A stretch of 64,000 nucleotides of DNA, taken from Pseudomonas sp. R4-35-07. Its GTDB lineage: Bacteria > Pseudomonadota > Gammaproteobacteria > Pseudomonadales > Pseudomonadaceae. The position numbers and the translations under genes are program-made. Position 1 is the stretch's first letter; each line of letters starts with the position of its first letter. The DNA is taken from the NCBI RefSeq assembly GCF_003852235.1, contig NZ_CP027732.1, positions 3,534,001-3,598,000 of the forward strand, in the 5' to 3' direction. Under the pieces are notes generated by a model that worked only from the letters and a program-made list of their open reading frames with translations, was not told where the DNA came from and did no database searches. This document shows, piece by piece, positions 8,042-60,872 of this stretch.

Positions 8042-8617
8042 TTAGATCACCACGTTGCGCACAAAACGCACGGTCAGCTCGCCATCGTTGCGATAGCCAT
8101 GTACCTGACGACTGGCAAACATATAGAACTCACCGGCGGCGACGCGCTTTTCTTCTTCGCCCACCAACAGGGTGAGGCAGCCTTCGAACACAAACAGTTG
8201 CACGCTCCAGCCGTCCGGGTCGGGGTCCGGGCTGTAGCGGTCACCCGGTGCCAAGTGCATCTCCCACAGTTCGACTTCACGCCGTGCCGTGGCCTTGGCC
8301 AGCAACACGGCTTTGCTGCCGGGGATATCACCCGCCCAGGCCAGCTCGTTGATGCGGCTGTGGTCGGCGGCATCCGGCGCCTGGATCAAATCGCTGAAGG
8401 CGACATCCAATGCCTCCGCGACGCGGTCGAGGGTCGACAGGCTGACATTCTTCTCCCCCGCCTCGATCGCCACCAGCATGCGCCGGCTGACCCCGGATCT
8501 TTCCGAAAGCGCGGTTTGGCTGAGGTCGGCGGCATGGCGCAGGCGACGCACGTTCTGGCTGACGTGTTGCAGGACCGAAGCCCGGTGTGGATTTTCTTTG
8601 TGCACTATATTGCTCAA
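8042..8617 (-). CDS. XRE-family transcriptional regulator with C-terminal cupin domain
   Basis: The 191-residue protein has an N-terminal helix-turn-helix (NVRRLRHAADLSQTALSERS then GVSRRMLVAIEAGEKNVSLSTL, about 22-62) and a C-terminal cupin (WEMHLAPGDRY, then VFEGCLTLLVGEEEKRVAAG and FYMFASRQVHGYRN). Such proteins sense a small ligand through the cupin and repress neighbouring genes. It is divergent from the EamA exporter with a 12-base perfect palindrome between them, so it probably controls the exporter and itself. The start is uncertain: the longest frame begins with TTG at 8617, and a GTG at 8605 is the alternative. Confidence 0.85.
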   Translation of the reverse strand: MSNIVHKENPHRASVLQHVSQNVRRLRHAADLSQTALSERSGVSRRMLVAIEAGEKNVSLSTLDRVAEALDVAFSDLIQAPDAADHSRINELAWAGDIPGSKAVLLAKATARREVELWEMHLAPGDRYSPDPDPDGWSVQLFVFEGCLTLLVGEEEKRVAAGEFYMFASRQVHGYRNDGELTVRFVRNVVI

Positions 8618-8630
8618 TGGGTGGGTGTGC

Positions 8631-8642
8631 GCAGTATACTGC
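8631..8642. promoter_or_regulatory. Palindrome in the divergent regulator/exporter region
   Basis: GCAGTATACTGC is a perfect 12-base palindrome midway between the XRE-cupin regulator and the EamA gene. It contains TATACT, which could serve as the -10 element for the exporter, so a repressor bound there would block transcription. The assignment as the regulator's operator is inferred from position. Confidence 0.5.
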
Positions 8643-8697
8643 CCAGCGTGCGGCGCATTGTGCGGTCCGTGCCTTTCCCTTGCAAGACCGAGCCGCC

Positions 8698-9627
8698 ATG
8701 ACTGCCCCGAACTCCCCTCCGCGTTTCAATCGCTTGAGCAAAGCCGAATGCATCCTGGTGGTGATCACCATGATCTGGGGCGCCACCTTTTTGCTGGTGC
8801 AGCATGCCATGGCGGTCAGCGGGCCGATGTTTTTCGTCGGCCTGCGGTTTGCGGCGGCGGCCATTGTGGTTGGCGTTTTTTCCTTGCGTACTTTGCGCGA
8901 CCTGACCCTGTTCGAGTTGAAAGCCGGGGTGTTCATCGGCGTGGCGATCATGTTCGGCTACGGCTTGCAGACCATTGGCCTGCAGAGCATTCCGAGCAGC
9001 CAGTCGGCGTTTATCACCGCGTTGTATGTGCCGTTCGTGCCGTTATTGCAATGGCTGGTACTGGGGCGGCGCCCGGCACTGCTGCCAAGTATTGGCATCA
9101 TGCTGGCGTTTACCGGATTGATGCTGTTAACCGGGCCGGCCGGCGCTTCTTTCAATTTCAGCCCCGGTGAAATCGCCACGCTGATCTGCGCAATGGCGGT
9201 AGCCGCCGAAATCATTCTGATCAGCGCTTATGCCGGGCAAGTGGATGTGCGTCGGGTGACCGTGGTGCAGCTGGCCACGGCGTCGCTGTTGTCGTTCCTG
9301 ATGGTGGTGCCGATGGGCGAGGCATTACCGGGCTTTTCGTGGTTGCTGCTGTTCAGTGCAGTGGGCCTGGGCTTGACCAGCGCGGTGATCCAGGTGGCGA
9401 TGAACTGGGCGCAGCAGAGTGTTTCGCCGACCCGGGCTACCCTGATCTATGCCGGCGAGCCAGTGTGGGCGGGCGTGGTCGGTCGGCTTGCCGGCGAGCG
9501 ATTCCCGCCGATTGCGATGGTAGGAGCGGCGTTGATTGTGCTGGCGGTGATTGTGAGTGAGATGAAGAGGAGCAGCCCTAAAGTTGTTGATGCCAGGGCC
9601 GAAGTTGAAGGGGAAAGTCAGGGGTGA
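8698..9627 (+). CDS. EamA/DMT-family membrane exporter
   Basis: A 309-residue integral membrane protein with ten predicted helices in two EamA repeats. The first begins ILVVITMIWGATFLLVQHAM near residue 19; the second ends with NWAQQSVSPTRATLIYAGEP followed by VWAGVVGRLAGERF. Family members export amino acids, metabolites or drugs. The substrate is not recognisable. I start at the ATG at 8698 (MTAPNSPP); the frame is open upstream to 8587, but that part is cysteine-rich and overlaps the promoter palindrome. It is divergent from an XRE-cupin regulator that probably controls it. Confidence 0.85.
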   Translation: MTAPNSPPRFNRLSKAECILVVITMIWGATFLLVQHAMAVSGPMFFVGLRFAAAAIVVGVFSLRTLRDLTLFELKAGVFIGVAIMFGYGLQTIGLQSIPSSQSAFITALYVPFVPLLQWLVLGRRPALLPSIGIMLAFTGLMLLTGPAGASFNFSPGEIATLICAMAVAAEIILISAYAGQVDVRRVTVVQLATASLLSFLMVVPMGEALPGFSWLLLFSAVGLGLTSAVIQVAMNWAQQSVSPTRATLIYAGEPVWAGVVGRLAGERFPPIAMVGAALIVLAVIVSEMKRSSPKVVDARAEVEGESQG

Positions 9628-9633
9628 TGTTTT

Positions 9634-9702
9634 GAGCTGCAAGCTACAAGCTGCAAGAAATACGCGGTCGGCTATTCTCTTGCAGCTTGCAGCTTGTAGC
9701 TG
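9634..9702. repeat. Long imperfect inverted repeat (AAGCTGCAAG family)
   Basis: The arms are built from AGCTACAAGCTGCAAG-type units and its complement (CTTGCAGCTTGCAGCTTGT), with a loop of about 21 bases. A related element occurs at 44835-44916. It follows the EamA stop by a few bases and could act as a transcription terminator or mRNA-stabilising hairpin. It is unrelated to the REPINs. Confidence 0.75.
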
Positions 9703-9801
9703 TTTTCCACTGCTCTTGTAGGATCCTGCCACATCTTGCCGTTTGGTGATCGAGAAAGCGGCACGTATGATGCATCCCAAACTCCCGCAGATTAGAAGCC
9801 T

Positions 9802-12726
9802 ATGTCCCTGATAGTTCTACTGCTTCTGCCATTCATTGGCAGCTGTCTGGCGGCCTTGCTGCCGCACAACGCACGCAACACCGAATCCTTGCTGGCTGGC
9901 CTGGTGGCCTTGGTCGGCACCATACAAGTCGCGCTGCTTTACCCCCAGATCGCCCATGGCGGCGTGATCCGTGAAGAATTCATGTGGTTACCCAGCCTCG
10001 GCCTGAATTTCGTGCTGCGCATGGATGGCTTCGCCTGGCTGTTCTCGATGCTGGTGCTGGGCATCGGCACGCTGGTGTCGCTGTATGCGCGTTACTACAT
10101 GTCGCCGGACGACCCGGTGCCACGTTTTTTCGCGTTTTTCCTGGCCTTCATGGGCGCCATGCTCGGCCTGGTGATTTCCGGCAACCTGATCCAGATCGTG
10201 TTTTTCTGGGAACTGACCAGCCTGTTCTCGTTCCTGTTGATCGGTTACTGGCACCACCGCGCCGATGCCAGGCGCGGTGCCTACATGGCGTTGATGGTCA
10301 CCGGCGCGGGCGGCCTGTGCCTGTTGGCCGGGGTGATGTTGCTCGGGCATATCGTCGGCAGCTATGACCTGGACCAGGTGCTGGCGGCGGGCGACCAGAT
10401 TCGCGCGCACTCGCTGTACCCGGCGATGCTCGCCCTGGTGCTGATCGGCGCCTTGAGCAAAAGCGCGCAGTTCCCCTTCCACTTCTGGCTGCCCCACGCC
10501 ATGGCGGCGCCAACGCCGGTGTCGGCCTATCTGCATTCGGCCACGATGGTGAAGGCCGGCGTGTTCCTGCTGGCCCGCCTGTGGCCATCGCTGTCGGGCA
10601 GCGAAGAATGGTTCTGGATCGTCGGCGGCGCCGGCGCCATTACCCTCCTCCTCGGCGCTTACTGCGCCATGTTTCAAAACGATCTCAAGGGCCTGCTGGC
10701 CTACTCCACCATCAGTCACCTGGGTCTGATCACCTTGCTGCTGGGCCTCAATAGCCCGCTGGCGGCTGTCGCGGCAGTGTTCCACATCCTCAACCACGCC
10801 ACGTTCAAGGCCTCGCTGTTCATGGCCGCGGGCATCATCGACCACGAAAGCGGCACGCGGGATATCCGCAAGCTCAGTGGGTTGGTGCGCCTGATCCCGT
10901 TCACCGCGACCCTGGCGATGGTGGCCAGTGCCTCGATGGCCGGCGTGCCATTGCTCAATGGCTTCTTGTCCAAAGAGATGTTCTTCGCCGAAACGGTGTT
11001 TATCTCGGCGACAAAATGGGTGGAAATCACGCTGCCGTTGATCGCGACCATCGCCGGCACCTTCAGCGTGGCCTATGCGTTGCGGTTTACCGTGGATGTG
11101 TTCTTCGGCCCGCCTGCCACCAACTTGCCCCACACGCCCCACGAACCCCCGCGCTGGATGCGCGCGCCGGTTGAGCTGTTGGTGTTCACCTGCCTGCTGG
11201 TGGGGATTTTCCCGGCCCAGATGGTCGGCTCGATCCTCGCCGCCGCCGCGTTGCCCGTAGTGGGCGGCGTGCTGCCCGAGTACAGCCTGGCGATCTGGCA
11301 CGGCTGGAACGCTCCGTTGATCATGAGCCTGGTGGCCATGTGCGGCGGTGTGGTGCTGTACCTGATGCTGCGCAAACAACTCAAGCGTGGCCGCTTCGCC
11401 TACCCGCCCCTGGTCGGCTATTTCAACGGCAAGCGCGGCTTCGAGCGCTGCCTGGTGCTGATGATGCGCGGCGTGCGTCGCCTGGAAAAACGCATCAGCA
11501 CCAAGCGCCTGCAAACCCAATTGTTCCTGCTGGTGATCGTCGCGGTGATCGGCGCCATGATCCCCATGTTCAACAGCGGCCTGAGCTGGGGCGACCGGCC
11601 GAAAATCCCCGGTTCCATCGTGTTCGTCACCCTGTGGTTGCTGGCGATTGCCTGCGCGCTGGGCGCCGCCTGGCAGGCCAAGTACCACCGGCTGGCGGCC
11701 CTCACCATGGTCAGCGTGTGCGGCCTGATGACCTGCATTACCTTTGTGTGGTTCTCGGCGCCGGACCTGGCGCTGACGCAACTGGTGGTGGAAGTGGTGA
11801 CCACCGTGCTGATCCTGCTCGGCCTGCGCTGGCTGCCACGGCGGATCGAAGAAGTCTCGCCGCTGCCCAGCTCGCTGCGCAAGGCGCGTATCCGGCGCCT
11901 GCGCGACTTTCTGCTGTCCACTGTGGTGGGCGGCGGTATGGCGCTGCTGTCTTACGCGATGCTGACCCGCCAGACGCCCAACGATATCTCCTCGTTCTAC
12001 CTCAGCCGCGCCCTGCCCGAGGGCGGCGGCAGCAATGTGGTGAACGTGATGCTGGTGGACTTCCGCGGCTTCGACACCCTTGGCGAGATCACCGTGCTCG
12101 GCGCGGTGGCGCTGACCGTGTACGCGCTGCTGCGGCGCTTCCGCCCGTCGAAAGAAAGCATGGAACTGCCGCCTCAACAGCGCCAGCTCGCGCCCGATGT
12201 CGCCACCGACCTGGTCAACCCGCGCCAGGCCAGCGACACCGCCCTGGGCTTCATGATGGTGCCGGCGGTGCTGGTGCGCCTGCTGTTGCCGATAGCGCTG
12301 GTGGTGTCGTTCTACCTGTTCATGCGCGGCCATAACCAACCGGGCGGCGGCTTTGTCGCGGGGTTGGTGATGTCGGTGGCGTTCATCCTGCAATACATGG
12401 TGGCCGGTACCCAGTGGGTCGAGGCGCAGATGAGCCTGCGGCCGATGCGCTGGATGGGTTTCGGCCTGCTGTCGGCGACCCTCACCGGGCTTGGTGCGTT
12501 GTTCGCCGGATACCCGTTCCTCACCACCCATACCTGGCACCTGAGCGTGCCGATGCTGGGCGATATCCATGTCGCCAGCGCATTGTTTTTCGACGTCGGC
12601 GTCTACGCCATGGTCGTCGGTTCGACCCTGCTGATGCTCACCGCCCTCGGCCACCAATCGGTGCGCGCGCACAAACCGAGCAACCAGCTCAAAGCCGTCG
12701 CCAACCCACAAGGAGCTGCCGCCTGA
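9802..12726 (+). CDS. phaA: Monovalent cation/proton antiporter subunit A (MrpA/PhaA with fused B domain)
   Basis: Largest membrane subunit of an Mrp-type antiporter that exchanges sodium or potassium for protons. It is 974 residues long. The first 500 residues resemble complex I proton-pumping subunits (VFFWELTSLFSFLLIGYWH, then KSAQFPFHFWLPHAMAAPTP, then LLAYSTISHLGLIT). The tail after about residue 650 (TFVWFSAPDLALTQLVVEVV, MRGHNQPGGGFVAGL) is the MrpB-like part, so A and B are fused as in group 2 operons. It begins a run of six genes with no gaps. The stop shares a base with the next start. Confidence 0.95.
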   Translation: MSLIVLLLLPFIGSCLAALLPHNARNTESLLAGLVALVGTIQVALLYPQIAHGGVIREEFMWLPSLGLNFVLRMDGFAWLFSMLVLGIGTLVSLYARYYMSPDDPVPRFFAFFLAFMGAMLGLVISGNLIQIVFFWELTSLFSFLLIGYWHHRADARRGAYMALMVTGAGGLCLLAGVMLLGHIVGSYDLDQVLAAGDQIRAHSLYPAMLALVLIGALSKSAQFPFHFWLPHAMAAPTPVSAYLHSATMVKAGVFLLARLWPSLSGSEEWFWIVGGAGAITLLLGAYCAMFQNDLKGLLAYSTISHLGLITLLLGLNSPLAAVAAVFHILNHATFKASLFMAAGIIDHESGTRDIRKLSGLVRLIPFTATLAMVASASMAGVPLLNGFLSKEMFFAETVFISATKWVEITLPLIATIAGTFSVAYALRFTVDVFFGPPATNLPHTPHEPPRWMRAPVELLVFTCLLVGIFPAQMVGSILAAAALPVVGGVLPEYSLAIWHGWNAPLIMSLVAMCGGVVLYLMLRKQLKRGRFAYPPLVGYFNGKRGFERCLVLMMRGVRRLEKRISTKRLQTQLFLLVIVAVIGAMIPMFNSGLSWGDRPKIPGSIVFVTLWLLAIACALGAAWQAKYHRLAALTMVSVCGLMTCITFVWFSAPDLALTQLVVEVVTTVLILLGLRWLPRRIEEVSPLPSSLRKARIRRLRDFLLSTVVGGGMALLSYAMLTRQTPNDISSFYLSRALPEGGGSNVVNVMLVDFRGFDTLGEITVLGAVALTVYALLRRFRPSKESMELPPQQRQLAPDVATDLVNPRQASDTALGFMMVPAVLVRLLLPIALVVSFYLFMRGHNQPGGGFVAGLVMSVAFILQYMVAGTQWVEAQMSLRPMRWMGFGLLSATLTGLGALFAGYPFLTTHTWHLSVPMLGDIHVASALFFDVGVYAMVVGSTLLMLTALGHQSVRAHKPSNQLKAVANPQGAAA

Positions 12727-41363: not shown

Positions 41364-41736
41364 CATAACAAAAATAAAAAGCGCCAAACCTAATAAAAAT
41401 AAGACGAAACGACTCTGACATAACAAAAACAACACGGCAGAGACGCAGCTAACAGATTTTTTTGGAGAAGATGTGCTTCGCAGGGTACGGCATGCCGAAA
41501 CCCGCAACCGGTCAGAGAAAAATAAAACTACCTCAGGTAGCTACCCACTGGTTGGATCGTTTACGAAGAAGCAGATCAGCGTTCAAAAAAATACGTTTGC
41601 TCTTGACCCCGGATGGGGGTCGCCAAAACAGCGGTAAAGGGTAACGGTTGCCAAAAACAACAATAGACCGCCCCTCAATAATAAAAAAAGAGCACGCAAC
41701 GACAAATTAAAGGGGACCTTCGGGTCCCCTTTGTGC
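41364..41736 (+). ncRNA. crcY: CrcY-type small RNA (Crc/Hfq-sequestering, CrcZ family)
   Basis: An RNA of about 370 bases that binds Hfq/Crc and relieves carbon catabolite repression. Support: a strong sigma-54 promoter, a probable CbrB site, a clear terminator, and many A-rich Hfq-binding stretches of the AAnAAnAA kind (AACAAAAATAAAAA near 41367, AATAAAAATAAGAC near 41393, AACAAAAACAACAC near 41422, CCAAAAACAACAATAG near 41653). Location also agrees: in P. putida crcY lies next to mvaB, the HMG-CoA lyase gene, as here. No credible protein is encoded. Ends are estimated. Confidence 0.87.
41709..41736 (+). terminator. Terminator of crcY
   Basis: AAAGGGGACC, a TTCG tetraloop, GGTCCCCTTT, then a T-rich tail broken by GTGC. 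It is a ten-base-pair stem with a stable UUCG loop and forms the 3' end of the sRNA. Confidence 0.9.
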
Positions 41737-41745
41737 TTTCTGGCT

Positions 41746-41881
41746 GATCGTTCCCACGCTCTGCGTGGGAACGCTTCCTGTGACGCTCCGCGTCGCGCCA
41801 GCCGCTGCACATTTCGGCTACTACGCTAAGGTGACGCAGAGCGTCAGGGGCTGCATTCCCACGCAGAGCGTGGGAACGATC
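41746..41881. repeat. Long palindromic repeat, GATCGTTCCCACGC family, copy 2
   Basis: The outer arms are GATCGTTCCCACGCTCTGCG and its full complement ending GTGGGAACGATC; internal GACGCTCCGCGTC and GACGCAGAGCGTC pair with each other. It is a second copy of the element at 18879. Its last bases abut the stop codon of the acyl-CoA ligase on the minus strand. Confidence 0.88.
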
Positions 41882-50552: not shown

Positions 50553-50584
50553 TTGACTTGCAAATGATAATGATTATTATTGGG
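50553..50584 (+). promoter_or_regulatory. Fur-regulated promoter of prrF
   Basis: TTGACT at 50553 and TATTAT at 50575 are 16 bases apart. The Fur-box-like GATAATGATTATTATTGG at 50566 covers the spacer and -10, matching about 14 of 19 consensus positions. Iron-loaded Fur would shut off the sRNA. Confidence 0.85.
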
Positions 50585-50587
50585 CCC

Positions 50588-50702
50588 AGCTGATCGCGAG
50601 ATCAGTCGATAGACCAAGAGACCTTAGGTCGGACTCTTGGAATATCTCCTCATCAGGCTAATCACGGTTTTTGACCCGGCTCTTTGGCCGGGTCTTTTTT
50701 TT
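50588..50702 (+). ncRNA. prrF: PrrF small RNA (iron-sparing sRNA)
   Basis: About 115 bases. Recognisable PrrF blocks are the first stem CTGATC-GCGA-GATCAG, then TCGATAGACCAAGAGACC, the antisense core TCTCCTCATCAGGCTAATCA, and a terminator GACCCGGC/GCCGGGTC followed by eight T. PrrF is made when iron is scarce and, with Hfq, represses mRNAs for iron-rich enzymes. Only one copy is present here; whether it is prrF1 or prrF2 cannot be told. Confidence 0.95.
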
Positions 50703-52133: not shown

Positions 52134-52673
52134 TCAGTGTTTGGTGCCGGTCATGCTTTGCAGCACGCCGTCACGGCGGATCAACCCGTGAAACAGCGCG
52201 GCCGCCAGATGCACCAGCACCGTCAGGAACAACAGGTAGGCGAGATAACCGTGGGCCTTGCGCAATAGCGCAAACAACGGCGCATTCGCCGAGACCAGTG
52301 CCGGCAGTTGCACGGAACTGCTGAGCATCACCGGGTCGCCGGCGGCCGAAATCATTGCCCAGCCCAGCAACGGCAACACCAGCATCAATCCGTACAAAAC
52401 CACGTGAGACGCCTTGGCCGCCAACACTTGCCACAGCGGCAAGTCCGCCGGCAGCGGCGGTTGGCGCGTGGAAAAACGCACCACCAGCCGCACGATGACC
52501 AGCGCCAGAATGGCGATCCCCAGCGGCTTGTGCAGGTGAATCAACCACTCGTGGCGCTCGGAAACCGACGCCGCCAGCCCCGCGCCAATAAACAGCATGG
52601 CGATGATCATGAGCGCCATCAGCCAGTGCAGCAAACGCGCCAACGGGGCGAAAAACCTTGGTTGAACATTCAT
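52134..52673 (-). CDS. Cytochrome b561-type membrane protein
   Basis: A 179-residue four-helix b-type cytochrome. Candidate haem histidines lie in FAPLARLLHWLMALMI near residue 16, WLIHLHKPLGIAILA, SHVVLYGLMLVLPLLGW and GYLAYLLFLTVLVHLAAALF. It is second in an operon with the catalase-like peroxidase (ATGA overlap). It probably passes membrane electrons to, or shares redox duties with, the periplasmic peroxidase. Confidence 0.92.
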   Translation of the reverse strand: MNVQPRFFAPLARLLHWLMALMIIAMLFIGAGLAASVSERHEWLIHLHKPLGIAILALVIVRLVVRFSTRQPPLPADLPLWQVLAAKASHVVLYGLMLVLPLLGWAMISAAGDPVMLSSSVQLPALVSANAPLFALLRKAHGYLAYLLFLTVLVHLAAALFHGLIRRDGVLQSMTGTKH

Positions 52674-53752
52674 GGCTTCGACTCCTGGGAGGCACTGTGC
52701 AACGGGCCGACTTCACCGGCACGCCGCAGGTAGGAACTGGCATAGGCGGCTGAACGTGCAGCCAGCAGCGGGTCATTGGAGGCCTCGATACCGCTGGGCA
52801 GAATCAGCGGGTCGAAGTTGATATCGCGGCAATCGCCGTCGGCTTGTGGCTGGCTGCTCTGCAACACCAGGGTGCCGGCATTGAGCACTTTGTGTTCACC
52901 GGCCCAGGTCTTGCTGGCGTCATCCAGCGGGTCGCCGGGGTTGGCCAGCATCATGTTCAATTGCCACTCTAGCGGCCCGGCAGCCAGGCGCTGCACCAGG
53001 TCTTTTTCCAGGAAGTCGCCGCCCTCGGGCGCGGTATCTCCGGCGGCGTCGCGGCTCTGCGGCACCACGGCCCAGCGCACGGCCTGGCGCTTGCCGTCGG
53101 CGCTCACCAGGTAAAACGCGTTGATGCCGTTGTAGGTTTCGGTCGCGTAACTGGCCGATGGCTTGGCGGTTTTAACCCACGCCAGGAACGCTGCGGTCTC
53201 CGGGTGTGCGGCAAAAAACGCCGGCATGCTCGAAGGGTTCGGCTTGCCGGTGGCGGGGTCCGGCGCGCCGGCCTTGAGCAATTGGTAGAACGCCTCGGGC
53301 GTGCCCACCGGGAACACCGGCATGCTGTTCATCCCGGTGCGCCACTGCTGGCCGTTGGCCTGGCTGAATTGCACGGCAAAACTGCGGATCGGCACGCTGC
53401 TGTCCGGTGCATAAGGGTTGCCGCTGGGCAAGGCAAACCGCCCGATCACCGGGGTTTTCGCCACGCTGAACAACTGAGCACTGGAATACGTACGCGCCTC
53501 GGGGCTGCTCTCGAAGTAGCCGGCTACGCACACGCCCTTGGCATGGTTACGCCGAAATCCCGGATGCACACCGTTATTGGTTTCCAGGGCATTGACCAGG
53601 GTTTTTGGGCGCAGGCGCTGCGGGTCGAGCGTACCGTTGACGTAGGCAAAGGCACCAGCGACAACCGCTACCACAGCACCGATACATGCGAGCCTGGCGA
53701 GCAGGTTGGCGGTACTCAGAGGCGGAAGCGGCGGTGGTGAGTGATCAACCAT
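52670..53752 (-). CDS. Catalase-family peroxidase (SrpA-like), membrane-anchored
   Basis: A haem peroxidase of the small catalase family, 360 residues against about 500 for true catalases. One N-terminal helix (ANLLARLACIGAVVAVVAGA) would anchor it facing the periplasm. The conserved HPGFRRNHAKGVCVAGYF near residue 63 holds the distal histidine, SFAVQFSQANGQQWRTGMNS follows, and the proximal tyrosine is probably in LLAARSAAYASSYLRRA. Transcribed from an ECF-type promoter identical in layout to that of the sigma gene at 57.1 kb, and coupled to cytochrome b561. A role in peroxide defence of the envelope is inferred. Confidence 0.9.
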   Translation of the reverse strand: MVDHSPPPLPPLSTANLLARLACIGAVVAVVAGAFAYVNGTLDPQRLRPKTLVNALETNNGVHPGFRRNHAKGVCVAGYFESSPEARTYSSAQLFSVAKTPVIGRFALPSGNPYAPDSSVPIRSFAVQFSQANGQQWRTGMNSMPVFPVGTPEAFYQLLKAGAPDPATGKPNPSSMPAFFAAHPETAAFLAWVKTAKPSASYATETYNGINAFYLVSADGKRQAVRWAVVPQSRDAAGDTAPEGGDFLEKDLVQRLAAGPLEWQLNMMLANPGDPLDDASKTWAGEHKVLNAGTLVLQSSQPQADGDCRDINFDPLILPSGIEASNDPLLAARSAAYASSYLRRAGEVGPLHSASQESKP

Positions 53753-53793
53753 GAAAAGCTCCAGGGCACGTGGCCGCAGGGGAAAAGTGTCAT

Positions 53794-53820
53794 GAGACGA
53801 ATCCCATGTAGGTTTATTCC
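53794..53820 (-). promoter_or_regulatory. ECF-type promoter of the catalase-b561 operon
   Basis: On the minus strand GGAATA (53815-53820), 15 bases, CGTCTC (53794-53799). The element before the ECF sigma gene has the same -35, spacing and CGTCT, so the same sigma factor should read both. Confidence 0.8.
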
Positions 53821-53873
53821 CCCTCTACTGTAGTTTTTTTCATGGCAAACGCACGTGCAGGCCAAACGTCCTG

Positions 53874-53950
53874 CTAACGCTGGTTGAACAATGCAGGTCG
53901 TTTATTGAGGAAGGCTTGCATGCCCTCCTGCTGATCCGGGGTGACGCTCC
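53874..53950 (-). pseudogene. C-terminal stub of an enoyl-CoA hydratase
   Basis: On the minus strand the frame reads VTPDQQEGMQAFLNKRPALF then NQR and stop, the usual end of an enoyl-CoA hydratase. Upstream of 53950 the similarity stops abruptly before the adenylation/membrane island, so about 230 codons are missing. Confidence 0.75.
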
Positions 53951-54005
53951 AGCACTACATTCATAAGCACCTCGACAGATTGATATTATTTGCGACACCG
54001 TTGTT

Positions 54006-55301
54006 TCACGAGTCCCAGATTGCGCCATAGGCGGGTATTGCATGGGCTTCGAGCGCTTGCACCACGCGTTGAGTCAGCGCCTGGTTGGCAATGCAGATCA
54101 CGGCTTCGGCGTCAAAGGTGCGCACCGCGCCGTAGGCCAACTGCACCAGGTCGGGCTTCCCTTGTTTATCGGTGTCCCAGATCAACGCGGTGGGCTGGAC
54201 GCGCAGAATTTCGTCGACCAATTCATCACCGTAGGTTTTCCTCGGACTGCGGGTGGACCAGATCAAGTGAATCGGCACCTGCGCGGCCAGCAAGTGCGGC
54301 ATGACCGGGCCAATGCCACTGCCGGTGGCGATGTACACCACCGATTTGAACAAGGTTTCCACATTGGCCACGCCGGCGGTGGTGATGCCCTTTACCCAGA
54401 CATGGCTGGGCAAATCCTCGATAAACCGTCCGGTCCAATCCCCGGCGCGGGAGATGATCAGGCGAAAGCCCGCCTCGCCCGGCGCTGGAATGTTCGCAAA
54501 GGAATGCCACTCAAGCAGCGGATTGCGGCTGATTGCCGTGGACGAACCGGCGAACGGCGTGGTGTGGCCAAGGCGCGTTACCACCGCATGCCCGGAAGGC
54601 CGCGCATGTTCAACGGCCACTTTGCGCAACCGCAACCATGGCAGCAGAATGCTCACTGTCAGCAGTACCAGCATCCAGAACGCGCCACTGTGCAGCAGGT
54701 CCGATGAGGCTTGCGTTGCCATCAGCACTGTTTGCCACCAGAACAACAGCAACGCACTCCAACCGGCAAAGCGATGAACCCGTTCGAAACCGTTGTGAAA
54801 ACGACTGCGAATCGGCGGGAGCGCCATAACCACCATGAGCAGCAACAGGCTGAACAGCGCGACGCTGAGCCACAACCCTGTCGACGACACGCTGCCCGGT
54901 TGTTGCACAAAGCTCGACATCTGGACACACACCAACGCTGCAAACCAGGCAGTGGCCGCCAGCGCCGCGCCGCTGTGCAGCCCTCCGAAATGGAACACTT
55001 TGGCCGCTCGGCGGCGCACCCACAGCGGCCAACACAGCGGAACCCGCGTGGCCAGCCAGAACAGCGCATTGATCACGTATTGCTGGCGTATCAGAATGGC
55101 AACCGACAGATTGATCAGCACCAGGTCCGACAGCATCGCTGGCGTGATCGCCAGCAGGTCAACGGCCAGCAGCACGGCGGCGTTCCCCATCAGCACCAAT
55201 GCCGCCAGGCGGTTGTAGTAAGAAAACACAGGTAGTGACCTCAAGCGCCGCCATAGTGCCGGCTTGGGTGGCAAAACGGCGCGGGTCGATACTTCAGTCA
55301 T
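54006..55301 (-). CDS. Membrane flavoprotein (TmpA-like ferric-reductase-type) paired with an adenylation enzyme
   Basis: A 431-residue protein with about six membrane helices in residues 30-222, including FERVHRFAGWSALLLFWWQT with a candidate haem or structural histidine, then a cytoplasmic ferredoxin-reductase-like half. RAGDWTGRFIEDLPSHVWV resembles a flavin-binding stretch and YIATGSGIGPVMPHLL (about 323-338) is a dinucleotide-binding loop. This arrangement is found in ferric reductases and in the fungal TmpA group. Its start overlaps the adenylation gene by eight bases, so the two are co-translated and probably act on the same metabolite. The reaction is unknown. Confidence 0.75.
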   Translation of the reverse strand: MTEVSTRAVLPPKPALWRRLRSLPVFSYYNRLAALVLMGNAAVLLAVDLLAITPAMLSDLVLINLSVAILIRQQYVINALFWLATRVPLCWPLWVRRRAAKVFHFGGLHSGAALAATAWFAALVCVQMSSFVQQPGSVSSTGLWLSVALFSLLLLMVVMALPPIRSRFHNGFERVHRFAGWSALLLFWWQTVLMATQASSDLLHSGAFWMLVLLTVSILLPWLRLRKVAVEHARPSGHAVVTRLGHTTPFAGSSTAISRNPLLEWHSFANIPAPGEAGFRLIISRAGDWTGRFIEDLPSHVWVKGITTAGVANVETLFKSVVYIATGSGIGPVMPHLLAAQVPIHLIWSTRSPRKTYGDELVDEILRVQPTALIWDTDKQGKPDLVQLAYGAVRTFDAEAVICIANQALTQRVVQALEAHAIPAYGAIWDS

Positions 55302-56901
55302 GGCCAGGCTCCGTGGTGGCGCCCGCCCACGTCGCTGCCTGATAGTCCTCGGCCAGTCGCAGCAAAGCGGCCTTGTCGATCTTGCCCCTGGCGGTCATGG
55401 GAAACGCCTCCAGCGCGTAGATGAACTTCGGCACGCAGTAGTAGGCCAGGCGCCGGTGACACTCGGATAGGCAGTCCTGCGTGTCGGCACTGGCCGGCGA
55501 GACAAAGGCGACCAGGGTGCGGTCGTCCACTTTCAACGTGACCCCCCGCGTGCACCCGGTGCCGGCCTCCAGGGCTGCGGTTACCGCGTCCAGCTCCACG
55601 CGAAACCCGCGAACTTTGACTTGGTCATCGACGCGGCCCAGGTGTTCGAGTTGGCCGTCGGCGGTCCAGCGCCCCAGGTCCCGCGTGCGGAACATCACAG
55701 CATCGCCCCCCAGAAACGGGTCCGGGCGGTATCGTTCCTGGGTCAACACTGCGTTGTTCAGGTAGCCCGCAGTCACTCCCGCGCCGCCGGCCCACATCTC
55801 TCCGGTCTCGCCTAAAGCGCAGGCGCGCCCCTGATCGTCGAGCACATACACCGTGTTATTGGGCGTCGGCCGGCCAATGGTCAACAGCGTGCCTGGCACG
55901 TGGCGGTGCAATGTGTTGACGATCGTGGTCTCGGTCGGCCCGCAACCGTTGTGGAAGGTAGAGTGCTCGGCCCAACGCTCGGCCAGGGCCTGAGCACAAG
56001 GCTCTCCGGCCACCGCGACCACGCTCAGGTCTGGGCACTGCAATGGATCAAGGGTGGCCAGTATCGACGGTGTCGCAATCAAGACGTTGCACTGCGCGGC
56101 TGTCTGCGCAATGTCCTTGCCACGAATCAGCAAGGTCGCCCCATGGGCCAGGCAACCGAGTATTTCCCAGGCTGCCATATCAAAGCCGATGTTAAGAACC
56201 TGCCCTACGGTAATGCCGGGGGCCATGCCCATCTGCCCGGGCGAAGTCAGCAAGATGTTGCACACGTTGCGATGGCTGACACACACACCGTTGGGGCGTC
56301 CGGTGGTGCCGGACGTAAACAGCACGAAACACAGGTCATCGGGTTCAGCCAGGGCGCCCACCTGCTCGCTTTCTTCGGCGACCCAGGGCATTTGCGCAAG
56401 GAACGTGTCCAGGCACAGACTGCGCGGGACCGCATCAGCCGGCAGGCGTTCGAGCAGGTTCGACAAGGTCAGCACCAACGGGCTGCTCAATGCTTCCAGC
56501 ACCTGGCCCAATTGCAGGGTGGGCACGATTCTGGCGTCCTGCGGGACATACGCGGCCCCCACCTTCAACACCGCCAGCAACCCCACCAGCATCGCAATCG
56601 AACGCTCGACGAACAAGCCCACCGTGTCGCCGCGCTTGACTCCCCGTTCAAGCAGGTGCACCGCCAATCGGTTGGCTTGGCGGTTGAGCTGCTCATAACT
56701 GATGCGCTGCCCCGCGCAGATCGCCGCCGTTGCCTGGGGCGCCCGCCGCGCCTGCGCTTCGATCGCGTGGTGCACATTGGAATAGGCAGGTTGGACCGAC
56801 GGACCACACCCCCATTGTCCGAACAGGATTCGCTCTGAGGCAGCCAGGTGGGTCAGTGCCGCGCCAGAGAGAAAGCGTTTATCCATAGGTGACAACGTCA
56901 T
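55294..56901 (-). CDS. Stand-alone NRPS-type adenylation enzyme
   Basis: An amino-acid-activating adenylation protein of 535 residues with no carrier or condensation domain. Motifs: A3 FVLFTSGTTGRPNGVCVSH (195-210; Asn replaces the usual second Lys), A4 NIGFDMAAWEILG with the Asp (241) that normally holds an amino-acid amino group, A5 NGCGPTETTIVN, A7/A8 RTRDLGRWTADGQLEHLGRV then DDQVKVRGFRVELD, A10 MTARGKIDKAAL with Lys 507. It ends shortly after A10. The ATG at 56901 has GAGGG upstream; a longer frame to 57078 is less likely. Its partner is the overlapping membrane flavoprotein gene. Confidence 0.85.
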   Translation of the reverse strand: MTLSPMDKRFLSGAALTHLAASERILFGQWGCGPSVQPAYSNVHHAIEAQARRAPQATAAICAGQRISYEQLNRQANRLAVHLLERGVKRGDTVGLFVERSIAMLVGLLAVLKVGAAYVPQDARIVPTLQLGQVLEALSSPLVLTLSNLLERLPADAVPRSLCLDTFLAQMPWVAEESEQVGALAEPDDLCFVLFTSGTTGRPNGVCVSHRNVCNILLTSPGQMGMAPGITVGQVLNIGFDMAAWEILGCLAHGATLLIRGKDIAQTAAQCNVLIATPSILATLDPLQCPDLSVVAVAGEPCAQALAERWAEHSTFHNGCGPTETTIVNTLHRHVPGTLLTIGRPTPNNTVYVLDDQGRACALGETGEMWAGGAGVTAGYLNNAVLTQERYRPDPFLGGDAVMFRTRDLGRWTADGQLEHLGRVDDQVKVRGFRVELDAVTAALEAGTGCTRGVTLKVDDRTLVAFVSPASADTQDCLSECHRRLAYYCVPKFIYALEAFPMTARGKIDKAALLRLAEDYQAATWAGATTEPGHD

Positions 56902-57041
56902 GAACACACCCTCATTGTTTGGCTGCCGGCTTAGTGCCGACAGGTACAAGGGTGGATGGAGCGCAACACCTGGGATTACAGAACCACCATTCAAAAAGAC
57001 TGATCCCACTCGAATGGCTAAAAAATCTTTCGATCGAATAA

Positions 57042-57068
57042 GGAATAACTTACGCGCACGCGCGTCTA
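57042..57068 (+). promoter_or_regulatory. ECF-type autoregulatory promoter of the sigma factor gene
   Basis: GGAATA, 15 bases, CGTCTA, starting 54 bases before the sigma ATG. Sequence and spacing match the catalase promoter at 53794, consistent with autoregulation. Confidence 0.78.
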
Positions 57069-57095
57069 CCCAGCACAACTGAGTAGACTCAACCC

Positions 57096-57602
57096 ATGCA
57101 TGAACTCGACGAACAGTTACGTGAACTCATCCCCAGGCTGCGGCGCTTTGCCGTGTCCCTGACCCGTAACGCCAGCAGCGCCGACGACCTGGTGCAGGCC
57201 ACCCTGGAACGGGCGATCATCGCGTGGGCTGACAAACGCATCGAAGGCGACCTGCGCGCGTGGCTGTTTTCGATCCTCTACCGGCAATTCCTCGATGCCC
57301 ACCGGCGCAGCCGCCGCTACGCCCGCATGCTCGAATTCTTCACCGGCCGCGATGATGCGCAGCCCTCGGTGGAACGTACGGTAATGGCCCAATTCACCCT
57401 GCAAGCCTTCGACCAGCTCACTACCGAGCAACGCGCCCTGCTGCTGTGGGTGTCGGTCGAAGGCTTGAGCTACAAGGAAGTCGCCGAAATACTCAACGTG
57501 CCCATCGGTACGGTGATGTCGCGCCTGTCCCGCGCCCGCCAGGCCCTGCGTCAACTCAGCGATGGCGAAATTGCCAGCCCTTCCCTGCGGATACTCAAAT
57601 GA
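57096..57602 (+). CDS. ECF RNA polymerase sigma factor
   Basis: A 168-residue group 4 sigma factor. Region 2: PRLRRFAVSLTRNASSADDL then VQATLERAIIAWADKRIEGD (about 10-50), with DLRAWLFSILYRQFLDAHRR. Region 4: LLWVSVEGLSYKEVAEILNV followed by PIGTVMSRLSRARQALRQLS (about 122-160), the helix-turn-helix that reads the -35 element. It is overlapped by its anti-sigma partner and carries the same promoter motif as the catalase operon. Confidence 0.93.
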   Translation: MHELDEQLRELIPRLRRFAVSLTRNASSADDLVQATLERAIIAWADKRIEGDLRAWLFSILYRQFLDAHRRSRRYARMLEFFTGRDDAQPSVERTVMAQFTLQAFDQLTTEQRALLLWVSVEGLSYKEVAEILNVPIGTVMSRLSRARQALRQLSDGEIASPSLRILK

Positions 57603-58435: not shown

Positions 58436-59530
58436 TTGGCCGTGCTTTCCCTGATCCGCCGCCTGCTGGGCAGCACCCATCGCATTTCGCGCGCCTCGCC
58501 TGTTGCGGCGTTTTTCCACGACAAGGCCCGGCAACAGGGCTACACCCTCAGCGCCGGCCAGGTGCAGACAATTGCAGCCATGGCCCGCGAGGCCCAGCAC
58601 CTGCTCGCCGGCCGACCCACGCGCAGCCTGTACCTGCACGGCCCGGTGGGGCGCGGCAAAAGCTGGCTGCTCGACGGGTTTTTCCAGGCGCTGCCGATCA
58701 CCGCCAAGCAGCGCGTGCACTTCCACGACTTTTTTGCCGAACTGCACCGGGGCATGTTCCGGCACCGCGAGCAGAACGACGCGCTGGCCGTCACCCTCGA
58801 CGAACTGCTGGCGGGCTGCCGCGTGCTGTGTTTCGACGAGTTCCATGTGCACGATATCGGCGATGCCATGCTTATCAGCCGCTTGTTCCAGGCCTTGTTC
58901 CGGCGCGGTGTGCTGGTACTGGTGACCTCCAACTATGCGCCCGAAGGCCTGCTGCCCAATCCGCTGTACCACCAACGCTTCAAGCCGGTAATCGATCTGA
59001 TCGCTGCGCGCATGGACGTGCTGGAAGTCAGCGCTCCCGAGGATTTTCGCAGCCTGCCCCAGGCCCATGCCGAGCAGCGCTTCAGCACTGGCCAGTACGT
59101 CTGGCCCGGCAGCGTGGCGCAACGTGCGGCGCTTGGCCTGCCTGCCGTCGACAGCCCGGCGCTGCCCTTGGCCGTCGGCAACCGGCAGTTGCTGTGCCGC
59201 CGCCGCGAAGCGCGCAGCATCGCGTTCACCTTCAACGACCTGTGCGAGCAACTCACCGCCGTGATGGATTACCTGCTGCTGTGCCAGGACTACGACCACT
59301 GGGTCATCGACGGCCTGCCCCACCTCGCCGACTGCCCGATCGCCGTGCAGCAACGCTTCATCAACCTGATTGACGTGCTCTACGACCGCGACAAACAGCT
59401 GATCCTGATCGGTGAACGGCCGCTGGAGCACGCCTTGAGTGGCGAGGCCATCGACCTTGCCCGCACCGCCAGCCGCTTGGGGCAACTGCAAGCGCGCCGC
59501 GCGCAATCTGTGCGCGACCCGGTATCATGA
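58436..59530 (+). CDS. zapE: AFG1/ZapE-like ATPase
   Basis: A 364-residue AFG1-family P-loop ATPase. Walker A LHGPVGRGKSWLLDGFFQAL near residue 64; Walker B VLCFDEFHVHDIGDAMLISR near 130; the sensor region VLVTSNYAPEGLLPNPLYHQ; and the C-terminal LLCQDYDHWVIDGLPHLADC. ZapE is linked to Z-ring stability during division and low oxygen in E. coli; the symbol is family-based, and this may be a second copy. The start is a TTG at 58436 (alternative GTG at 58442). It lies 25 bases before the LRR-kinase gene in the same direction. Confidence 0.85.
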   Translation: MAVLSLIRRLLGSTHRISRASPVAAFFHDKARQQGYTLSAGQVQTIAAMAREAQHLLAGRPTRSLYLHGPVGRGKSWLLDGFFQALPITAKQRVHFHDFFAELHRGMFRHREQNDALAVTLDELLAGCRVLCFDEFHVHDIGDAMLISRLFQALFRRGVLVLVTSNYAPEGLLPNPLYHQRFKPVIDLIAARMDVLEVSAPEDFRSLPQAHAEQRFSTGQYVWPGSVAQRAALGLPAVDSPALPLAVGNRQLLCRRREARSIAFTFNDLCEQLTAVMDYLLLCQDYDHWVIDGLPHLADCPIAVQQRFINLIDVLYDRDKQLILIGERPLEHALSGEAIDLARTASRLGQLQARRAQSVRDPVS

Positions 59531-59555
59531 GCGCCTTTTCACGCCCCCTTGCCGA

Positions 59556-60872
59556 GTGACCGCGCCGTTGATCAATACCCTCGCCCAACTCAAGGACGGC
59601 CAATTGGCCGGTGCGACACGCCTGGACCTGGCCTGCGGGCTGACCGAATTTCCCCGGGAAATCTTCGAACTGGCCGACTCGCTGGAAATCCTCAACCTCA
59701 CGGGCAACGCCTTGAGCAGCCTGCCGGACGATCTGTACCGCCTCAAGCACTTGCGCGTGCTGTTCTGCTCGGACAACGCCTTCACCGAACTGCCGGCGTG
59801 CCTGGGCCAGTGCCCCGCGCTGAGCATGATCGGCTTCAAGGCCAACCAGATCCGCCACGTGCCCGCCGCCGCCCTTCCGCCGCAGTTGCGCTGGCTGATC
59901 CTCACCGACAACTGCATCAGCCAACTGCCCGACGAACTCGGCCAGCGCCCGCTGCTGCAAAAGCTGATGCTGGCCGGCAACCAACTGACGCACTTGCCGC
60001 CCAGCCTGGCCCAATGCGAAAACCTCGAGCTGATCCGCATCGCGTCGAACCGCCTGACGCACCTGCCGCACTGGCTGCTGACGCTGCCCAGCCTGACGTG
60101 GCTGGCCTATGCCGGCAATCCGGTGGAAATGGCCGTGAACGTGGCCGGCGACGACGAGACAGCGGATATTCCCTGGGCCGAACTGGAACTGGGTGACGTA
60201 CTCGGCGAAGGCGCCTCGGGGATTATTCGCAAGGCCTTGTGGAAGCCCCGCGCGTTACCCGTCGCGGTCAAACTGTATAAAGGCACGATCACCAGCGACG
60301 GTTCGCCGCTGCACGAAATGCAAGCGTGCATAGCCGCCGGGTTGCACCCCAACCTGATCAGGGTGCAGGGGCGCATCGTCGACCACCCCGGCGATCAGGC
60401 CGCGTTGGGGATGGACCTGATCGACCCGAGCTACCGCAACCTCGCGGCGTTGCCGAGCCTGGCGTCCTGCACCCGGGATATCTACGAACCGAGCCTGCGC
60501 CTGAGCCTCGACGTGGCGCTGCGCATGGCCCGCGGCATCGCCTCGGTGGCGGCGCACCTGCACCGGCACGGCATTACCCATGGCGACCTGTACGGCCACA
60601 ATATTTTGTGGAACAGCGCGGGCGAGTGTTTATTAGGGGATTTCGGCGCGGCGTCGTTTCATGCCACGGCGGACACCCTGGAAACCAGGGCGTTGCAACG
60701 CATTGAAGTGCGCGCGTTCGGGGTGTTGTTGGGGGAGTTGCTGGAGCGGGTTGATACGACGGTCCCCGGCGAACTGGAAGACCTGCGCAAAAGCTGCTGC
60801 CAGCCCGATGTGCTGGCGCGACCAAGCTTCGAAGCTATTGAAGCCGTGCTGCAATCTTTCCAACACCACTAA
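59556..60872 (+). CDS. Leucine-rich-repeat protein kinase
   Basis: A 438-residue cytoplasmic protein with no signal peptide. Residues about 15-190 are seven or eight LRRs of about 23 residues (LEILNLTGNALSSLPDDLYR, LQKLMLAGNQLTHLPPSLAQ). Residues about 205-435 form a kinase domain: glycine loop LGEGASGIIRKA, lysine in LPVAVKLYKG, catalytic loop GITHGDLYGHNILWN, and LLGDFGAASFH. All core catalytic residues (K, D, N, DFG) are kept, so it should be an active Ser/Thr or Tyr kinase. The start is taken as the GTG at 59556; the upstream frame overlaps zapE and is arginine-rich shadow. The target is unknown. Confidence 0.85.
   Translation: MTAPLINTLAQLKDGQLAGATRLDLACGLTEFPREIFELADSLEILNLTGNALSSLPDDLYRLKHLRVLFCSDNAFTELPACLGQCPALSMIGFKANQIRHVPAAALPPQLRWLILTDNCISQLPDELGQRPLLQKLMLAGNQLTHLPPSLAQCENLELIRIASNRLTHLPHWLLTLPSLTWLAYAGNPVEMAVNVAGDDETADIPWAELELGDVLGEGASGIIRKALWKPRALPVAVKLYKGTITSDGSPLHEMQACIAAGLHPNLIRVQGRIVDHPGDQAALGMDLIDPSYRNLAALPSLASCTRDIYEPSLRLSLDVALRMARGIASVAAHLHRHGITHGDLYGHNILWNSAGECLLGDFGAASFHATADTLETRALQRIEVRAFGVLLGELLERVDTTVPGELEDLRKSCCQPDVLARPSFEAIEAVLQSFQHH

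Follow-up and report, generated by a model that had tools for sequence, protein, structure and literature searches.

A stand-alone adenylation protein and its membrane flavoprotein partner in Pseudomonas resemble fungal TmpL-type proteins

Introduction

Fungal proteins such as TmpL, TmpB and ChNPS12 combine a nonribosomal peptide synthetase (NRPS)-type adenylation (A) domain, free of carrier or condensation domains, with six transmembrane helices and an FAD/NAD(P) domain. These A-plus-TmpA proteins have been linked to spore signalling or sporulation signals, redox balance and oxidative stress. TmpL-type proteins carry a GSGIGP motif, and TmpL orthologues are said to be restricted to filamentous fungi (PMC2766074; this and the other papers named by PMC number are drawn on in excerpt). 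We analysed a 64,000-nucleotide stretch of the Pseudomonas sp. R4-35-07 genome (NZ_CP027732.1, positions 3,534,001 to 3,598,000; hereafter the window), in which the gene of a stand-alone NRPS-type adenylation protein (AD) overlaps that of a membrane flavoprotein (MEM). We consider it an evenly balanced proposition that this island represents the fungal architecture in a split, bacterial version, i.e., a carrier-free cassette of AD, MEM and an enoyl-CoA hydratase (ECH) making a small metabolite or signal derived from alanine.

Single parts of this picture appear in the 2010 fungal, 2012 Salinispora and 2016 Aspergillus papers. An ECH gene adjoins tmpB, and in Aspergillus nidulans the adenylate-forming enzyme AfeA belongs to one pathway with the TmpA-type flavoprotein, although AfeA is coumarate-ligase-like, whereas AD is an amino-acid A domain (PMC4804170). 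The stand-alone A domains of Hahella and Salinispora were grouped with the ChNPS12 clade (PMC2823734). Sare0718 from Salinispora arenicola, which lies outside the known NRPS clusters and is adjoined by ECH, hypothetical and phosphopantetheinyl transferase (PPTase) genes, is specific for L-alanine among the 20 amino acids in its adenylation activity in vitro (PMC3360062). TmpA and TmpB are merely cited in the excerpt of PMC8399174. Judged by search listings, we found no paper in the open-licence PMC literature that joins the fungal, Salinispora and Aspergillus parts with the bacterial membrane partner.

The overlapping gene pair

The two genes of the pair are as follows.

55294..56901, reverse strand: AD, 535 amino acids, ATG at 56901, stop ending at 55294; stand-alone NRPS-type adenylation protein with the code DMWAAAGIVK and PNG in the A3 motif
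54006..55301, reverse strand: MEM, 431 amino acids, ATG at 55301, stop ending at 54006; six-helix membrane flavoprotein with FAD and NAD(P)H motifs

They share the 8 bp from 55294 to 55301, exactly the eight-base overlap described in an earlier sequence-only reading of this stretch, whose observation is confirmed here and whose interpretation is partly supported. The open reading frame (ORF) finder also listed a second AD start, a TTG extending the frame to 57078. We took the ATG at 56901 as the start because this form aligns to relatives from residue 1 (e.g., L015 and L019).

The adenylation protein

AD is an NRPS-type A domain by its matches to PF00501 (E 1.7e-67) and TIGR01733 (324.3 bits against a cut-off of 317.4), and it has the amino-acid-binding Asp in FDMAAWE and the A10 lysine in RGKIDK. 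The A-domain families were the sole matches in Pfam and NCBIfam, where no carrier or condensation domain was found, and the chain ends 28 residues past the A10 lysine. The family matches and motifs bear out the earlier description of a stand-alone adenylation protein that has the Asp and lacks a carrier domain. Assignment as a DltA D-alanine ligase was rejected (TIGR01734, 175.8 bits against a cut-off of 559.85).

The A3 motif reads FTSGTTGRPNGV, i.e., PNG for PKG, as had been noticed before. We compared 80 A domains, namely those of 77 of the 80 loci fetched in the scan described below together with L004, L009 and L011 (L009 repeats L039), leaving out the fragmentary A domains of L014, L059 and L073. 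PNG was invariant in all 80, the Asp235 position was Asp in 79, and the pocket codes fit DMW[AS][AI]A[AGSC]I[VI]K in all except L038. This last locus, from Pseudomonas anatoliensis (AD at about 8487-9968), has Gly at the Asp235 position and an ECH gene with an internal deletion of its own. Further out, PNG occurs in 109 of the best 120 relatives of an actinobacterial AD, the other 11 lying outside the search pattern. Among 120 proteins of fused length (see below), the residue is N in 78, K in 5, S in 2 and R in 1, with 34 unmatched, 33 of them without PF00501; given these few K, S and R residues, PNG is near-universal at this distance and not absolute.

The codes of the window (DMWAAAGIVK) and of Salinispora tropica (DMWAAASIVK) are close to the Sare0718-type DMWIAAAIVK, with the catalytic Lys present; the positions were placed by PheA motifs, and position 278 may be off by one against the published code. 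The S. tropica AD is 54.6% identical to that of the window and has PNG, and we took the PNG status of Sare0718 from this relative, not from its own motif. Sare0718 is the likely orthologue of AD, and by analogy with the activity measured for Sare0718 the substrate of AD is probably a small amino acid, most likely L-alanine. The sequence-only reading had suggested that PNG may affect ATP handling. The substitution is there, but these A domains carry it without exception and the likely orthologue is active, so that PNG in itself need not impair the handling of ATP.

The membrane flavoprotein

MEM has six transmembrane (TM) helices, one short helix and a NADPH-oxidase (NOX)/ferric-reductase fold. 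Its FAD motif is NOX2-like (EWHSF, GDWT; the match to NOX2 is weak, E 0.0027), and its dinucleotide motif is TGSGIGP, in agreement with the six-helix protein with flavin- and dinucleotide-like motifs read earlier. No family matched MEM in the Pfam and NCBIfam sets scanned, which did not include PF26733; the 120 listed homologues carry PF26733 as a precomputed label. Anti-phage defence (PADLOC, 0 matches for AD and MEM) and a phage family (PHROG, 0 matches for MEM) were tried and rejected.

NADPH oxidases hold two bis-His haem sites, for which TM3 and TM5 each supply two His spaced 13-14 residues apart. In MEM, the conserved residues H104, H109, H169, E173 and H176 lie toward the cytosolic side, and H104, H169 and E173 are invariant. 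The haem geometry is argued here from sequence: no second ligand pair was found in alignments of 84 and 120 rows. At TM3 positions 110-129, His occurs in at most 2 of 84 and 5 of 120 rows at any position; at the far end of TM3, His130 is present in 20 and His133 in 11 of 84 rows, and His190 on TM5 in 6 of 84 and 17 of 120 rows, not in the window. MEM thus shares the fold and the FAD and NAD(P)H motifs of SpNOX and NOX2 but differs in lacking the second pair and in the extra invariant H104, H169 and E173 toward the cytosol. Of the flavin and haem ligands sought in this protein, the flavin motifs are present, whereas the haem sites number at most one.

Conservation and natural fusions

We scanned 84,980 species genomes with MEM patterns, which gave 376 places encoding a relative, and fetched the best 80. 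Because the patterns were MEM-only, AD adjacency was not built into the scan. All 80 loci have AD upstream of MEM in the same orientation (cut by a contig end in L014 and L059; L004 stands in for the window locus). By record titles, the 80 loci come from Pseudomonadota, Bacteroidota, Actinomycetota, Chloroflexota and Cyanobacteriota, and the pair is kept in these five phyla at 52-82% MEM identity. The AD-MEM pairing is more than chance, and the genome-neighbourhood comparison proposed earlier finds the pair conserved. Among 119 Pseudomonas genomes including its own, nine match MEM, one weakly (G095, 26% over 152 residues), and the eight clear matches all have AD directly upstream, its frame broken in L008. 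Across 369 genomes of the class, its own genome alone matches, with at most four candidates per genome examined, a limit that may hide weak relatives.

A single open frame of 963-1016 residues encodes both AD and MEM in 15 of 88 loci (the 80 named loci and 8 whole-genome matches, with at least three duplicates: L006/L022, L009/L039 and L010/L028). In this set, L034, L073 and L008 gave odd gap values. Fourteen of the fusions are from Bacteroidota, mostly Aquimarina, and one is from Caballeronia glathei. The MEM tree places Caballeronia with other Pseudomonadota, apart from Bacteroidota (support 92/90, long branch), which suggests at least two fusion events. A length-limited search with a fused protein listed 120 proteins, 87 with PF00501, 30 with the cyclic-nucleotide-binding domain PF00027 and 3 with PF26733 alone.

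The bacterial fusions match TmpL in domain order and are of similar length, TmpL having 1025 or 994 residues (PMC2766074). Together with the overall architecture, the GSGIGP motif and a nearby ECH gene as for tmpB, they support the resemblance to fungal TmpA/TmpL systems that had been proposed from the window alone, and they qualify, for the architecture, the statement that TmpL is confined to filamentous fungi. Unlike the fungal proteins, the window pair is bacterial and consists of two overlapping genes instead of one chain, ECH follows directly on the same strand in most bacterial relatives, and the second motif, RLHFD in the TmpL type, reads RLIIS in MEM. Because the A domain and the membrane part are encoded separately, we treat the window pair as working like TmpL, TmpB and ChNPS12 and do not file it as a member. 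Sare0716-0718 shares with the window a stand-alone A domain, adjacent to ECH and hypothetical genes, and the S. tropica code is near-identical; it differs in the adjacent PPTase gene and in retaining ECH, which is deleted in the window. We infer that Sare0717 is MEM.

On plasmids, tblastn matched five records, and the three that were read encode MEM relatives of 48% (Pantoea), 32% (Fischerella) and 35% (Calothrix) identity. In the Pantoea piersonii plasmid (L001, 9001-12225), the relative stands without AD and precedes a gene annotated as AAA ATPase but matching the amino-acid transporter family PF01490. In the cyanobacterial plasmids (L002, 8869-11584; L003, 6475-9078), it likewise stands without AD and precedes a HlyD-type protein. 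In L071 (12269-13000) and 14 other Bacteroidota loci, the module is followed by a gene of a family of about 243 amino acids whose start resembles a signal peptide.

The usual third gene

An ECH gene follows MEM in 67 of the 80 loci (21 of 29 Pseudomonas, 46 of 51 others); in this count the L068 match is weak (35%), L089 is cut by a contig end, and 2 of the 13 loci without ECH end too near to judge. The best NCBIfam match was PRK05862 (enoyl-CoA hydratase) in all four proteins tested, above the cut-off in two. Two Glu residues, which we take to be those of the active site, are both kept in 66 of 67 rows, the remaining row being gapped. Pairwise distances of AD, MEM and ECH correlate with one another (r 0.83-0.91, 64 loci), as they do in a subset of 32 loci that leaves out Pseudomonas and retains one Aquimarina (r 0.76-0.82; highest shuffle 0.21); the correlation lends support but falls short of proof. 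The pair is conserved, usually as a trio with a hydratase whose gene is deleted to 91 bp in this strain; a separate internal deletion occurs in P. anatoliensis.

53874..53964, reverse strand: ECH remnant, approximately the first 8 and last 22 codons of the gene, in different frames

The insertion site

The module is flanked by the following features, including the gene of an extracytoplasmic function (ECF)-type sigma factor.

57096..57602, forward strand: ECF-type sigma factor gene, divergent; left border of the insertion site
53796..53820, reverse strand: ECF-type promoter-like motif before the catalase gene (GGAATA, 15-nt spacer, CGTC), retained in the interval that separates this gene from the module; a pattern match only
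52670..53752, reverse strand: catalase-family protein gene by family match, presumably SrpA-like; right border of the insertion site
52134..52673, reverse strand: cytochrome b561 gene by family match, overlapping the catalase gene

The catalase gene adjoins the module in all 29 named Pseudomonas loci, and in 27 of them the divergent ECF sigma gene borders the module on the opposite side (the exceptions are L014, a short contig, and L026, where no match was obtained). Among the catalase loci compared (the best 30 of 91 matching genomes among 99), 27 lack the module and have the ECF gene as immediate neighbour of the catalase gene, and the other three, including that of the window, have MEM. Other module sites exist, since in two of the six whole-genome MEM matches also in the catalase search (G052 and G065) MEM is not flanked by a close catalase gene. 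In every locus examined (7 occupied, and 8 of the 27 empty), the ECF-type pattern lies ahead of the catalase gene. A catalase-type ECF promoter driving the module was rejected, as none of seven regions upstream of AD matches this pattern, which was chosen after seeing the sequence. In 53700-57200, sigma-70 promoter and terminator signals numbered 1 and 4, against 0.7 and 3.7 in shuffles, and were dropped; Rfam listed no known RNA element in the module. From the sequence, the module looks like an accessory insertion that came in as one piece and is expressed separately, beside the catalase-cytochrome b561 operon.

Proposed function and alternatives

In the proposed cassette, AD would convert a small amino acid, most likely L-alanine, to the aminoacyl-AMP, the step measured for the likely orthologue Sare0718. 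With no carrier found, the aminoacyl group would most likely pass to CoA or another free thiol or amine, the CoA-type hydratase being the main hint. Judged by its motifs and fold, MEM would take hydride from NAD(P)H to FAD and deliver electrons toward the cytosolic side (the second haem for cross-membrane transfer is missing); the electrons might reach the activated residue, or O2 acting on that residue. ECH could then hydrate or cleave the unsaturated thioester so formed, giving a small alanine-derived metabolite, possibly a signal. As ECH is deleted in this strain, the chain would stop one step earlier or use another genomic hydratase, the best being 53% identical to the P. libanensis ECH. 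If true, the proposal describes carrier-free activation of the NRPS type that is coupled to a NOX-fold protein unable to serve as an ordinary transmembrane oxidase. The question of the fungal product would become testable in laboratory bacteria, given the separate small genes, the L-alanine activation measured for a likely orthologue and the empty site in sister genomes. A bolder version seems to us unlikely: that AD-MEM-ECH is an ancient cassette of bacteria and fungi, in which the haem path of the NOX fold was rebuilt as an active site (H104, H169, E173) converting free alanyl adenylate, carrier-free, to a diffusible signal, with ECH loss switching the product.

Several findings weigh against the carrier-free cassette. 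ECH is absent in the window strain, 13 of the 80 loci also have none (2 of these at contig ends), and the distance correlation is inflated by shared ancestry and may reflect joint inheritance alone. No AD was found within 7-9 kb of MEM in the three plasmids read of five matched, and 30 of 120 MEM relatives (within P0206-P0241) carry a fused cyclic-nucleotide-binding domain instead of the A domain, which is therefore not always required by MEM. The natural fusion P0122, when modelled (pTM 0.54, mean pLDDT 86), gave no sign of fixed AD-MEM docking. Residue 176, the likely equivalent of NOX2 H209, is not His in 16 of 120 rows, and the fungal likeness is drawn from published descriptions and motifs, not from sequence alignment. 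The PPTase gene beside Sare0718 (sare0719) could also mean a carrier in trans. We think it unlikely that AD loads alanine on a carrier encoded elsewhere, with MEM and ECH acting on the carrier-bound residue in a scattered NRPS starter unit, even though stand-alone A domains loading carriers in trans are known (PMC2823734). Clustering the ORFs of at least 90 amino acids around the 80 loci gave, beyond AD, MEM and ECH, just single-group or scattered families (one confined to 15 loci of Bacteroidota, ABC-type ATPases at 14 loci and response regulators at 9). When the small ORFs of the 51 non-Pseudomonas loci were scanned with strict motifs, without a positive control, no carrier-like ORF was found, and the usual enoyl-CoA-type hydratase fits CoA better.

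MEM could instead be an oxidase under regulation, producing or removing reactive oxygen species (ROS), with AD, or the cyclic-nucleotide-binding domain in relatives, serving as a sensor and not as a biosynthetic enzyme. The missing second-haem ligands leave no NOX-like electron path across the membrane, the conserved ECH gene would go unexplained, and the catalase-type ECF pattern is absent upstream of AD in 7 of 7 loci; we regard this explanation as quite unlikely, despite the NADPH-oxidase fold, the 30 cyclic-nucleotide-binding fusions and the adjoining catalase-cytochrome b561 operon. Fungal TmpL mutants accumulate ROS (PMC2766074), which connects the family with ROS but ill fits a simple ROS producer. 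That the module in this strain is a decaying, functionless remnant appears quite improbable as well, since the AD and MEM frames are uninterrupted throughout with their motif residues intact, and another source has a full-length protein 95% identical to MEM. Signs of decay are nevertheless at hand in the 91-bp ECH remnant, the lack of ECH in 8 of 29 named Pseudomonas loci, the separate ECH deletion and Gly at the Asp235 position in P. anatoliensis, and the broken AD frame of L008.

Other features of the window

Rfam matched two Pseudomonas small RNAs on the forward strand, PrrF at 50553-50702 and CrcZ at 41365-41764. An ORF at 59439-60872 on the forward strand encodes a protein of 477 amino acids in which leucine-rich repeats precede a protein kinase domain.
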